Source of the DNA: Rhizobium redzepovicii
Lineage (GTDB): Bacteria; Pseudomonadota; Alphaproteobacteria; Rhizobiales; Rhizobiaceae
Assembly: GCF_019793435.1 (NCBI RefSeq)
Contig: NZ_JAILYH010000005.1
Location: 62,001 to 126,000 of the forward strand
DNA length: 64,000 nt
Direction: 5' to 3'
Positions within the stretch are counted from its first letter, which is position 1. The number at the start of each line of letters is the position of its first letter. The translations under genes were made by a program, and so were the position numbers. This document shows positions 59,313 to 64,000 of the stretch, piece after piece. Under the pieces are notes generated by a model. It was not told the DNA's origin and ran no database searches. It was given only the letters and a program-made list of their open reading frames with translations.

Positions 59313-60350
59313 TTAGTTTTCGAAGATATGCGCCTTGCCCGCGATATCCAAGCGAACGAGATCGCCTCGTGAGGGAAGCGCGACGCTTGAGGTCTTGATC
59401 AGGATCGGCGGCAGGGCGACACCGTCGAGCGAAACCGCAACGGTGCAGACCGCGCCGCCGAACTCCACCTCAACGACACGCCCGCCATAGCGGCGATCGC
59501 CTTCATCGGCAACGACGCGGATCTGCTCGGGCCGCAGCATGATCTCCGCCTTGCCCTGACGATTGCCTTCGACGGCGACGCGGCCGAGCGCACAATCGGC
59601 GAGGCCATTGCGGATGATGGCCGGAAGCAGCACGGCATCGCCGAGAAACAGCGCCGTCTCGCGATCCCGCGGATGCAGATACAATGATTGCGGCGACCCG
59701 GCCTGGATCAGCCGCCCCTCTCTCAGAACCGCAACCTGATCGGCAAAAGTCAGCGCCTCTTCCTGATCATGCGTGACGAGCACGGCGGTGATGCCGGCCG
59801 CCTGCAGCACGCGCGCCACTGCCTTGCGCATGTTCTCACGCAGGCCGGTATCGAGTGCCGAGAACGGTTCGTCGAGCAGCATCAGCCGCGGCTTGCGGCC
59901 GAGGGCACGCGCAAGCGCCACGCGCTGCTGCTGTCCGCCGGAAAGCTGGTGCGGACGCCGCACCAGCATGCCACGGTCGAGCTCGACCATATCGAGCAGC
60001 TCGACGATGCGCTTCTCGCGATCCGCTGCCCCCCGCTCGAAGCCGAAGCCGATATTTTCGGCGACGCTCAAGTGCGGAAACAGCGCGCCGTCTTGCGAAA
60101 CGATGCCGATGCCACGCTTATGGGCCGGCACCGTCGCAGGCCCATCGGCAAGGACTTCGCCGTCGAGCGTTACCCTGCCGACATCGGGTTGCTCGAAGCC
60201 GGCAATAATGCGCAGCAGCGTCGTCTTGCCCGAACCGGACGGGCCGACGACGGCCGTGCGGCTGCCCGCCTGGACATCGAGCGAAATATCCTTCAGCGCC
60301 TGCACAGGCCCGTAGCGCTTGCTGATGTTTTCGATCGTAAGCAGCGTCAT
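59313..60350 (-). CDS. Fe(III) ABC transporter ATP-binding protein (FbpC type)
   Basis: This 345-residue ATPase has Walker [10 protein letters not shown] (36-44), signature LSGGQQQR, Walker B LMLLDEP and a C-terminal TOBE-like regulatory domain. It resembles FbpC-type ferric and polyamine/sulfate importers. It overlaps the permease stop by four bases and is the last gene of an iron-boxed minus-strand operon. Confidence 0.9.
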
Positions 60351-62014
60351 TGGCCGGCGGTCCGTTTCGATTGCGTATAGAGCATGAGGGTGAGCGGCAG
60401 CGACAGCACGACCATCATGAAGGCATATGGTGCGGCCGAGACATAGTCGATCTCGCTGGTCAGCGACCAGAATTTGGTCGCCAGCGTATCGACGCCGTTG
60501 GGCGACAGCATCAGTGTCGCCGTCAGTTCGTTGGTGATGCCGAGCGCGGCTAGCGCCACGCTGGCGGCCGCGCCTGGTGCGGCAAGCCGCATGGTGATCT
60601 GCCGCACCGCTTGGCCCGGCGTGCGGCCCAGCCCCATCGCGGCGCGCTCCAGCTCCACCGGCGCCTGGGCGATGCTGGCGCGCAGCCCGACCATGGCGCG
60701 CGGCAGGAAAAGCATCACATAAGCGACGAGCAGCGTTGCGAAGGTCTGATAGAGTGGCAGCACGAGACGCACGGTGATCGTCACCAGCGCCAGCGCCACC
60801 ACGACACCCGGCAGCGAGCCGACGTAATAGTGGCAGGCTTCGAGCAGGCGCTGGAAGCGGCCGGGCGCACGCACGGAAAGCCAGGCCATCGGGGCTGCTG
60901 CAATCGTCGCCAGCACGCCGCCGACAATGGCAAGCACGATCGTCTGCAGAAAGGCGCTGCCGACCTCGATGCGCCAGATCTCGGTACCGCCGAGATAGAG
61001 CCAGCGGCCAAGCGTCACCAGCGGCACGCCGAGCGTCAGCACCGCCAGGGCGATGGGCAGCAAGATGGCTGGCAGCATGAACCAGCCGAGCCGCCGGCGG
61101 TCCGTGGGACGCGGCGAGCCGGTGCCGACGCGGGCATAACGTTCGTTACCGCGCACCAGCACCTCGAAGCCGAGCAGAAAAAGACAGCAGGCGACGAGCA
61201 CGCCGCCAAGCATGTTGGAGGCAGGGCTGTTGTAGGAAGACTGGAACTGGTCGACGATCGCCGTCGCGAACGTGTCGAAGCGGATCATCACGAACAGGCC
61301 GTATTCCGACAGCAGATGCAGCCCGATCAGCAGCGAGCCGCCGCAAATGGCGAGCCGGAGCTGCGGCAGAACCGCCCGGAAGAAGACCCGCCAGGGATTA
61401 AGGCCAAGCGAGGCCGCGGCATCCTCGATCGCCGGATCGAGGCGGCGCAGGGCTGCGGCGACCGGCAGGTAGAGGAAGGGATAATAGGCGATCACCGAGA
61501 TGAAGACGCCGCTCTGCAGGCCGCGCATGCCGGGGAGGAGACTGACCCAGGCATAGCTGTGCACAAAGGCGGGCACGGCGAGCGGGGCGATGGCAAGCCA
61601 GGCCCAGAGCCTGGCGAAAGGAATGTCGGTCCGCTCGGTCAGCCAGGCAAGCGTCACGGCAAGCGCGATCGACAGCGGAATGGTGATCGATTCCAGCAGG
61701 ACCGTGTTGACGAGCAGTTCGCCGACGCGCGGCCGGAAAACCAGGGCCTTCACCGTTTCCCAGCCTACGTCGTAGGTGACCCAGCCGATGAAGCCGAGCG
61801 GCACCAGACTGAAGATCGCGACGATGGTGGCAAGCAGGAGCACGGAGGCGTGCGGCGCGCGCGCGCGCGGCAAACCCATACGCGTGGCCTTCGACGCGAC
61901 CGGCGCCTTGTTGCCGGATGCGAGCAATCTGTTGTCCTGCAGCAAGGCCGATGCCTTCATACGCCGAAAAAGGAAGGCAACCGCTTTTGAGGAGCGGTTG
62001 CCGGATATCGTCAT
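60347..62014 (-). CDS. Fe(III) ABC transporter permease (FbpB type)
   Basis: This 555-residue, roughly twelve-helix permease has two fused membrane halves, each with a transport motif loop ([24 protein letters not shown] and [23 protein letters not shown]), typical of FbpB-type ferric importers. The start MTISGNRSS is used, but the ATG at 61960 is an alternative as the upstream one lacks a good SD. Confidence 0.88.
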
Positions 62015-62077: not shown

Positions 62078-63100
62078 TCAGATCAGCCCGGCAATCGTCA
62101 TCAGCTCCACGACCTTCCTGCTGTCCAGCGTCGAAGCTTCGACTTTCGGCGCATTGAGATCGGCGAGCGGCGTCAGCTTGTCGTTGGAAGCGGCATCCTT
62201 GCCGATGGCATATTCGTAGGACGTGCCGTCCTTCAGAACCGCCTGGCCGGCCTTGCTGGTGATGAACTTCAAGAAAGCCTGGGCGTCCTTCATATGCTGG
62301 GTCGACTTCAGGATGCCGCCGCCCGAAACACTGACGAAAGCGCCCGGATCCTGGTTCTTGAAGTAATGCAGGCCGACATTCTTGCTGTTTTCACCGGTTT
62401 TGGCCTGATCGCCGAACCAGTAATAGTGATAGATGATCGCGCCTTCGACTTCGCCTGCATTGACGGCCTTCATGGCGACGCTGTTGCCCTTGTAGGGTGT
62501 CGCGTTGTCCTTGAGGCCTTTCAGCCATGCCTTGGTGGCGTCTTCACCCTTGAGCTGCAGCAGCGAGGCGACGATGGCCTGGAAGTCTGCACCGGCAGGC
62601 GCTGCACCCCAGCGGCCCTTCCAGGCCGGATCGGCGAGGTCGAGCATCGACTTCGGCAGCTTGTCTTCGGTGAGCTTGGTCTTGTCATAGGCAAAAACGG
62701 TGGTGCGGGCGGCAATACCGGTCCACATGCCGTCGGCCGGGCGGTACTGATCCGGCACCTGGTCCAACGTGTCCTTTTCGATGGGGGCGAAGAGGCCTGC
62801 GCCGTCGACCAGCGTCATCGCCGGCGAATTCTCGGTGAGGAATACGTCAGCCGGTGAGGCATCGCCTTCCTGGATGATCTGGTTGGCGAATTGCATGTCG
62901 CTGCCCTGGCGCATGGTGACCTTGATGCCGGTCTCCTTGGTGAAGGCGTCGATCCATTCGCGGCCCAGGCTTTCGTGCTGGGCATTGTAGACGACGAGAC
63001 CTTCGTCCTGCGCATTGGCCCTGCCGGCGAGCGCAGTGGCGGAGAGAAACGAAGCGGCAAGCGCAAGCGCTTGGGAAAAACGGTTGAGAGCAAAGTTCAT
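62078..63100 (-). CDS. Fe(III) ABC transporter substrate-binding protein (FbpA type)
   Basis: This 340-residue protein has a signal peptide (MNFALNRFSQALALAASFLSATALAGRANA) and a ferric-binding fold: VVYNAQHESLGREWIDAFTKETGIKV with the iron-anion-site region, and the tyrosine pair IIYHYYWF that commonly co-ordinates Fe(III). A GGAGG site precedes the ATG. Two iron-box motifs lie 63-127 bases upstream. Confidence 0.93.
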   Translation of the reverse strand: MNFALNRFSQALALAASFLSATALAGRANAQDEGLVVYNAQHESLGREWIDAFTKETGIKVTMRQGSDMQFANQIIQEGDASPADVFLTENSPAMTLVDGAGLFAPIEKDTLDQVPDQYRPADGMWTGIAARTTVFAYDKTKLTEDKLPKSMLDLADPAWKGRWGAAPAGADFQAIVASLLQLKGEDATKAWLKGLKDNATPYKGNSVAMKAVNAGEVEGAIIYHYYWFGDQAKTGENSKNVGLHYFKNQDPGAFVSVSGGGILKSTQHMKDAQAFLKFITSKAGQAVLKDGTSYEYAIGKDAASNDKLTPLADLNAPKVEASTLDSRKVVELMTIAGLI

Positions 63101-63162
63101 GATGGCCTCCGTGGCAATGCCGCCCGAGCTCCACAAGGGCGATGAGAGGCGTATATTTTTCC

Positions 63163-63177
63163 TGACTGCCTATTTCA
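63163..63177 (-). promoter_or_regulatory. RirA iron-responsive operator, proximal
   Basis: TGA-CTGCCTATT-TCA fits the rhizobial iron-responsive operator TGA-N9-TCA. It lies 63 bases upstream of the fbpA-like ATG. Confidence 0.55.
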
Positions 63178-63212
63178 AGTTTGGCCTGCAAGGAAAAGCC
63201 ATCACAATATCT

Positions 63213-63227
63213 TGACTAAATATTTCA
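63213..63227 (-). promoter_or_regulatory. RirA iron-responsive operator, distal
   Basis: TGA-CTAAATATT-TCA, a palindromic TGA-N9-TCA site, lies exactly 50 bases upstream of the proximal copy in AT-rich promoter-like DNA. Confidence 0.6.
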
Positions 63228-63274
63228 TATTAAAAGGGAATAAATCTCGATCGGTCGAAAAAGCGGCATTCCGC

Positions 63275-63376
63275 GCATGTCGCCCGGAAGTGTGCAGCGG
63301 TTCCGGGACAACGACATGCGTCAAAAGAAGAGCTAAAGCGCGTCGCAGGAATCGAATTGCGTGCGACGCGGTTTAG
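63275..63376. repeat. two-hairpin repeat, copy 4 (complete)
   Basis: GCATGTCG (63275-63282) with CGACATGC (63312-63319), then CTAAAGCGCGTCGC (63333-63346) with GCGACGCGGTTTAG (63363-63376), one mismatch. It has the same arrangement as the copy at 38890 and fills the space between the iron operon and the ALDH gene. Confidence 0.85.
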
Positions 63377-63417: not shown

Positions 63418-64000
63418 TTATTCGACGTCGAACTTGACGCCTTGGGCGAGCGGCAGCGTTCTGCCGTAATTAATCGTGTTCGTAGAGCGGCGCATATAGG
63501 CCTTCCAGGCATCCGAGCCGGATTCGCGGCCGCCGCCGGTTTCCTTCTCGCCACCGAAGGCGCCACCGATTTCGGCGCCCGACGGGCCGAGATTGACGTT
63601 GGCGATGCCGCAATCCGAGCCGCGGGCGGAGACGAAGGTTTCGGCCTCGCGCATGTCGTTGGTGAAGATCGACGACGACAGCCCCTGCGGCACCGCATTG
63701 TGCAGGGCCAGTACCGTATCGAAATCGCTGTATTTCATCACGTAGAGGATCGGCGCGAAGGTCTCGTGCTCGACCGGGCCGGTTTGCGCCGGCATTTCGA
63801 CGAGCGCCGGGCGAACGTAGAAGGCATCGGTCAAACCGTTGCCGACGCGATCACCGCCGGTCACCTTGCCGCCGGCCGATGTCGCCTGGCTGAGTGCTGC
63901 CTGCATCTTCTCGAAAGCCTGGCCGTCGATCAGCGGTCCGACCAGCGTGCCTGTTTCGAGCGGATTGCCGATGGTGACGGAACCATAGGCCTTCTGGAGC
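63418..64000 (-). CDS. aldehyde dehydrogenase, ALDH7 (aminoadipate-semialdehyde dehydrogenase) type, 3' part
   Basis: The 5' end lies right of the window; 193 codons remain. The conserved end of an ALDH7-like enzyme is seen: [99 protein letters not shown]. This matches the lysine-catabolic AmaB/L-aminoadipate-semialdehyde dehydrogenase group. The catalytic cysteine itself lies outside the window. Confidence 0.9.

Follow-up and report, generated by a model that had tools for sequence, protein, structure and literature searches.

The Ferric-Iron ABC Operon and Its Neighbours

The window, which is the whole 64-kb stretch of Rhizobium redzepovicii DNA analysed here, carries the minus-strand operon whose genes and control sites are listed in Table 1. 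The preliminary description had named it an Fe(III) ABC operon, and sequence comparison identifies its members as ferric-iron ABC transporter genes. FbpA matches YfuA, SfuA and 8k7n, which are ferric-iron-binding proteins with solved structures, at E values of 1e-137 or better, and its YHYY stretch aligns with those proteins; none of the NCBIfam models matches FbpA above its cut-off. The operon resembles the SfuABC/YfuABC/FbpABC transporters in the closeness of the binding protein to SfuA and YfuA and in the shared order of binding protein, permease and ATPase. It departs from these systems in its expected control, which in alphaproteobacteria is by RirA/Irr rather than Fur.

Table 1. Genes, predicted promoter and candidate control sites of the fbpA region (window coordinates).
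Feature	Coordinates	Strand	Remarks
ABC ATPase	59313..60350	minus	with TOBE domain
ABC permease	60347..62014	minus	start as listed; true start may lie downstream of hairpin
Hairpin	61976..62002	minus	perfect 10-bp stem, then T-rich stretch
fbpA	62078..63100	minus	periplasmic ferric-iron-binding protein, SfuA/YfuA type, 340 aa
GGAGG	63106..63110	minus	likely ribosome-binding site of fbpA; read directly from the sequence
Predicted promoter P1	63150..63178	minus	-35 TTGAAA (63173-63178), 17-nt spacer, -10 TATACG (63150-63155)
IRO1	63163..63177	minus	TGAAATAGGCAGTCA (plus strand, TGACTGCCTATTTCA); -77 from ATG; overlaps -35 box of the predicted fbpA promoter
Conserved element	63201..63215	minus	TCAAGATATTGTGAT; shares its TCA with IRO2 (right half)
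IRO2	63213..63227	minus	TGAAATATTTAGTCA (plus strand, TGACTAAATATTTCA); upstream operator; -127 from ATG
Conserved block	63237..63246	minus	GATTTATTCC
Inverted repeat	63333..63376		CTAAAGCGCGTCGCA / TGCGACGCGGTTTAG; 15 nt, 93%

The gene upstream of the operon runs in the same direction, ends at 63418 and resembles L-piperidine-6-carboxylate dehydrogenase over its last 193 residues, a call made from a fragment that falls below the cut-off for the whole protein. Divergent transcription from the plus strand was set aside; this neighbour is co-directional, and a single plus-strand promoter-like match is found, at 63130-63157. The inverted repeat between the dehydrogenase gene and the iron operon is possibly a terminator or a rhizobial repeat.

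Relatives of the locus were collected in two sets. The first consists of the window together with homologous loci, of which the best 80 of 361 were taken, and the second of the 59 of 394 family genomes, the window's own included, in which FbpA is matched at E 1e-100 or better. Together they give 140 loci, of which 131 are distinct after identical upstream regions are removed; related sequences are not independent, and the FbpA tree used below is a quick tree. Directly after fbpA and inside the listed start of the permease gene lies the hairpin of Table 1. A perfect GC-containing hairpin with a stem of 8-10 bp occupies the same interval in 45 of the 80 homologues (best 80 of 361) when counted by a strict script. 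The hairpin is likely an attenuator or terminator, which would place the real start of the permease after it.

Two TGA-N9-TCA Sites and the RirA Regulator

The two TGA-N9-TCA sites lie where the preliminary description placed them, exactly 50 bp apart, and are termed IRO1 (gene-proximal) and IRO2 (upstream). A motif-free repeat finder recovers the same pair as an 18-nt direct repeat with a start-to-start spacing of 50. The motif occurs 24 times in the 64-kb window, compared to a shuffle mean of 10.9 (sd 3.35), and simple arithmetic from this figure predicts roughly one chance pair per 7.0 Mb for any given spacing. The window's own genome has one such 50-bp pair, with none in the reversed control. 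The operator pair by itself is not beyond chance; thus, the case for the operators rests on conservation in relatives. A third match, at 63085-63099, overlaps the fbpA start codon; it is shared by only three of the 80 homologues (L014, L052 and L076; best 80 of 361) and is set aside as probably coincidental.

The IRO operator is defined as TGA-N9-TCA in the available portions of PMC8822346 and PMC6386902, and [4Fe-4S] RirA is described in excerpts of PMC5863699 and PMC6748827 as binding IRO boxes and repressing. Five Rrf2 proteins of the window's genome exceed the Pfam cut-off, and one of these reaches 265.8 bits with the RirA model, whose cut-off is 193, compared to 41.5 to 51.6 bits for the other four. 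The fbpA locus thus combines the TGA-N9-TCA palindrome with a RirA gene in the same genome and an iron-metabolism gene downstream of the operators. RirA control of the fbpA operon is well supported as a prediction from these features and from the conservation described below.

Elsewhere in the genome, control genes give a mixed picture, which speaks against the RirA model: rirA has an IRO upstream, no clear promoter IRO is seen in the suf stretches examined, and none is found in the stretch before the irrA domain match. A TGA-N9-TCA site also spans the start codon of an hmuP-like gene (L127:1132-1146 of the window's genome). The longer form TGAAATN5GTCA occurs at 20 places in the genome, compared to four for the reversed control. 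It was rejected as a genome-wide marker of iron promoters, since 19 of the 20 places fall inside an open reading frame of at least 80 aa (a mechanical count that includes spurious frames). In Sinorhizobium fredii, the motif is noted in five of ten ChIP-seq peaks in the part of PMC8822346 available. RNA-seq of Rhizobium leguminosarum, as given in excerpts of PMC6421345, includes some Fe(III) transporter genes, afuA3 among them, that are not raised in a rirA-frameshift strain; this speaks against the RirA model, although these genes are not mapped to the present operon.

Compared to known RirA-repressed IRO promoters, such as that of fhuA in R. leguminosarum, the fbpA promoter likewise has TGA-N9-TCA, RirA in the genome and an iron-uptake gene downstream. 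It differs from the fhuA type in having two operators with a conserved element between them; one operator is embedded in the -35 box, and the other lies about 77 bp upstream of the predicted start. No description of paired operators at this operon was recognised in the literature searched.

IRO1 Overlaps the Predicted Promoter

IRO1 overlaps the TTGAAA hexamer of TTGAAA-N17-TATACG, a promoter (P1) predicted from sequence. The P1 hexamers are near-invariant in the 53 loci of the first set (81 loci) that have both operators. P1 is absent from the list returned by a generic promoter scan of the window, which missed it because the scan demands T at the sixth -10 position.

In homologous Rhizobiaceae promoters, the gene-proximal site overlaps a TTGA -35 box. 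When promoter candidates with TGA in the -35 box are picked without regard to TCA, 128 of the 131 distinct upstream regions have one. A TCA stands 12 bp after this TGA, the operator position, in 99 of the 128 candidates, and any other offset is found at most 15 times. Stricter filtering leaves 97 of the 131 regions with a scored IRO1, a count that omits L125, which the previous count includes. L125 is from another genus of the family, and its sequence at the IRO1 place is identical over all 15 letters to the fhuA IRO box published in PMC10510648, as given in the portion available.

IRO2, the Conserved Element and the Spacing

On the plus strand, 11 of the 15 letters of IRO2 match the RirA-bound fhuA IRO box, as given in the same portion of PMC10510648. 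Of the 81 loci in the first set, 53 have both sites in exact form (50 bp apart in 25, 48 bp in 28). Extending the comparison to the 131 distinct loci again gives 53 with both sites, at a spacing of 48 in 28 and 50 in 25, with no other value within 35-65. In one further locus, L019, the spacing is 49 bp and one letter is broken. The loci with both sites carry the titles Rhizobium or 'Rhizobiales bacterium', and to these are added the window and one genome of the same genus.

In the tree of FbpA, a single group of 29 rows (support 92, not starred) takes in every 50-bp locus, and it is nested in a 40-row group (support 97) that also includes 48-bp loci; the tree needs ten changes in the state of IRO2 in all. 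The 50-bp form was probably inherited from a single event, so its 25 loci are not independent. Among the paired loci, the length of the interval changes once on this tree and the length of the leader 20 times (binomial p 0.0011). On this comparison of relatives, the operator spacing is constrained.

A conserved element with the constant letters TCAAG-N3-TTGTGAT lies between IRO2 and the promoter, and its TCA also forms the right half of IRO2. The distance from the start of TTGTGA to the -35 box is 29 bp in the window and 27-29 bp in relatives; with one mismatch at most, TTGTGA is found at 27-29 bp in 74 of the 108 loci with a scored promoter. Of the 72 loci with the element and TCA, 52 have TGA exactly 12 bp upstream, which completes IRO2, and the next commonest offset is found nine times; in the remaining loci IRO2 is not intact and the element is kept. 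The distance of 27-29 bp is also found in 23 loci without an intact IRO2 (L152 among them is probably a false call), which argues for another cause of the spacing. Among the 13 loci with an ICE box but neither IRO1 nor IRO2, 11 have the element at 27 bp, as do all four loci in which IRO1 and an ICE box occur without IRO2. Thus, the distance does not depend on IRO2. The element is found in none of the 21 loci in which IRO1, IRO2 and ICE are all unscored, and it is not seen at 27-29 bp in 33 of the 40 IRO1-only loci. In the window's genome, TCAANNNNTTGTGAT occurs at the operon and at one other place (control matches, none), a pattern that does not resemble a common regulon site.

Turnover of Irr-Type Boxes

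The ICE box, to which Irr binding is attributed in alphaproteobacterial promoters, has the consensus TTTAGAA-N3-TTCTAAA. Within three mismatches of it, ICE-like boxes occur in 33 of the 131 distinct upstream regions, mostly at about -140, beside the IRO2 place, and in some relatives they are near-perfect. The window's promoter has none (the best match has four mismatches and lies at -310), and the window's lineage as a whole is without an ICE box; the promoter thus differs from the Irr/ICE-box promoters of its relatives. A block, GATTTATTCC, is conserved in the window's lineage near the ICE-box place of sister lineages.

With one mismatch at most, the consensus is matched at three places in the window's genome and nowhere in the control. 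The genes next to these places are presumably mbfA, a cysteine desulfurase gene and an nfuA-like gene, which makes the consensus credible. The genome also encodes IrrA (177.2 bits, cut-off 150). Loss of RirA as the cause of ICE-only promoters was rejected, since each of the 17 genomes tested, including 11 with ICE-only promoters, has a RirA above the cut-off. Irr can repress or activate according to the position of the ICE box, as stated in the portion of PMC7762939 available.

Proposed Mechanism and Alternatives

Reading from the two sites, the promoter-like hexamers, the element, the conservation of all three, and the RirA and IrrA genes, we infer binding of RirA at this promoter, repression, an activator and its masking. 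The promoter of this ferric-iron ABC operon is, with a slightly better than even chance, iron-responsive and of the RirA type, with different jobs for its two operators. When iron is sufficient, [4Fe-4S] RirA on IRO1, overlapping the -35 box, would exclude RNA polymerase, and this occlusion is the probable main switch. RirA on IRO2 would cover TCAAG-N3-TTGTGAT, the site of a putative activator or architectural protein, such that a second RirA dimer removes upstream stimulation. As iron falls, the cluster would break down, both sites would empty and the operon would be expressed. The near-fixed spacing of the operators would follow from how far the element lies from the promoter and not from contact of two RirA dimers. 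That IRO2 is an anti-activation site masking the element, in a promoter re-wired around a constant core, is a tentative proposal, less probable than the division of jobs as such; it is suggested by the shared TCA and the constant distance. The shift from 48 to 50 bp speaks against the two-job model, as it rotates the element by about 70 degrees, which is beyond the tolerance of many activators.

An alternative is that the region holds tandem promoters with one operator each; the second promoter would have TTGTGA as its -35 box and a weak -10, NAAACT, just before IRO1 at a spacer of 16 or 18. TTGTGA agrees with TTGACA at four of six positions, and sigma-70 spacers of 16, 17 and 18 would account for operator spacings of 48, 49 and 50. 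NAAACT is, however, poor as a -10 (3-4 of 6), and similar A-rich letters precede TTGA in distant relatives that lack TTGTGA, so their conservation has another reason. Such an arrangement is unlikely.

The element may instead be a site for IHF, whose consensus has the core TCAANNNNTTR and the full form WATCAANNNNTTR; bending would then join Irr or polymerase contacts, and RirA at IRO2 would compete with IHF. The core is present in 57 of the 74 element-bearing loci, but the full consensus in only two of the 74, and the most constant letters, TGTGA, lie partly outside it. An IHF site is accordingly given a low probability.

Equally improbable is a promoter in which IRO1 alone works and IRO2 is not a RirA site, its TCA belonging to the element and its TGA being incidental. 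Within the window's lineage, IRO2 is lost in L018, L023 and L037 with IRO1 intact, and is one letter off in L019, as such a promoter would allow. The exact 12-bp offset of TGA in 52 of 72 loci, set against nine at most for any other, and the resemblance of IRO2 to the fhuA IRO argue the opposite.

The preliminary description took 50 bp as about five helical turns, a distance that would have both sites on one face of the DNA. With 10.5 bp to a turn, the 50-bp spacing comes to 4.76 turns and falls about 86 degrees short of five, and the 48 bp seen in 28 of the 53 distinct paired loci comes to 4.57 turns, closer to the opposite face. Neither centre spacing is near a whole number of turns; thus, a same-face rule is not what is kept, and same-face spacing was rejected on the turn arithmetic together with the 48-bp relatives. 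The related proposal that two same-face RirA dimers bind co-operatively, with the 50-bp spacing serving their contact or a small loop, agrees with the near-fixed spacing of the paired loci and with the co-operative binding of RirA to fhuA IRO DNA by SPR (Hill 2.2) given in the available part of PMC10510648, but it is similarly doubtful given these turn values and the distance maintained in loci without an intact IRO2. Co-operativity reported on fhuA IRO DNA, moreover, does not need two sites.

Implications for Iron Control in the Family

If IRO2 does mask the element, the element would have stayed at a nearly constant distance from the promoter as RirA and Irr sites around it came and went, with some lineages having Irr (ICE) and RirA sites, one having the Irr-type box alone, and that of the window having RirA alone. 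Most of the RirA operators known are single, loose palindromes. The fbpA promoters of these relatives form a natural series in which IRO2, the ICE box and the spacing vary, and IRO1 and the constant element are common; such a series could show what is gained from a second operator and how control of a promoter moves from one iron regulator to another.
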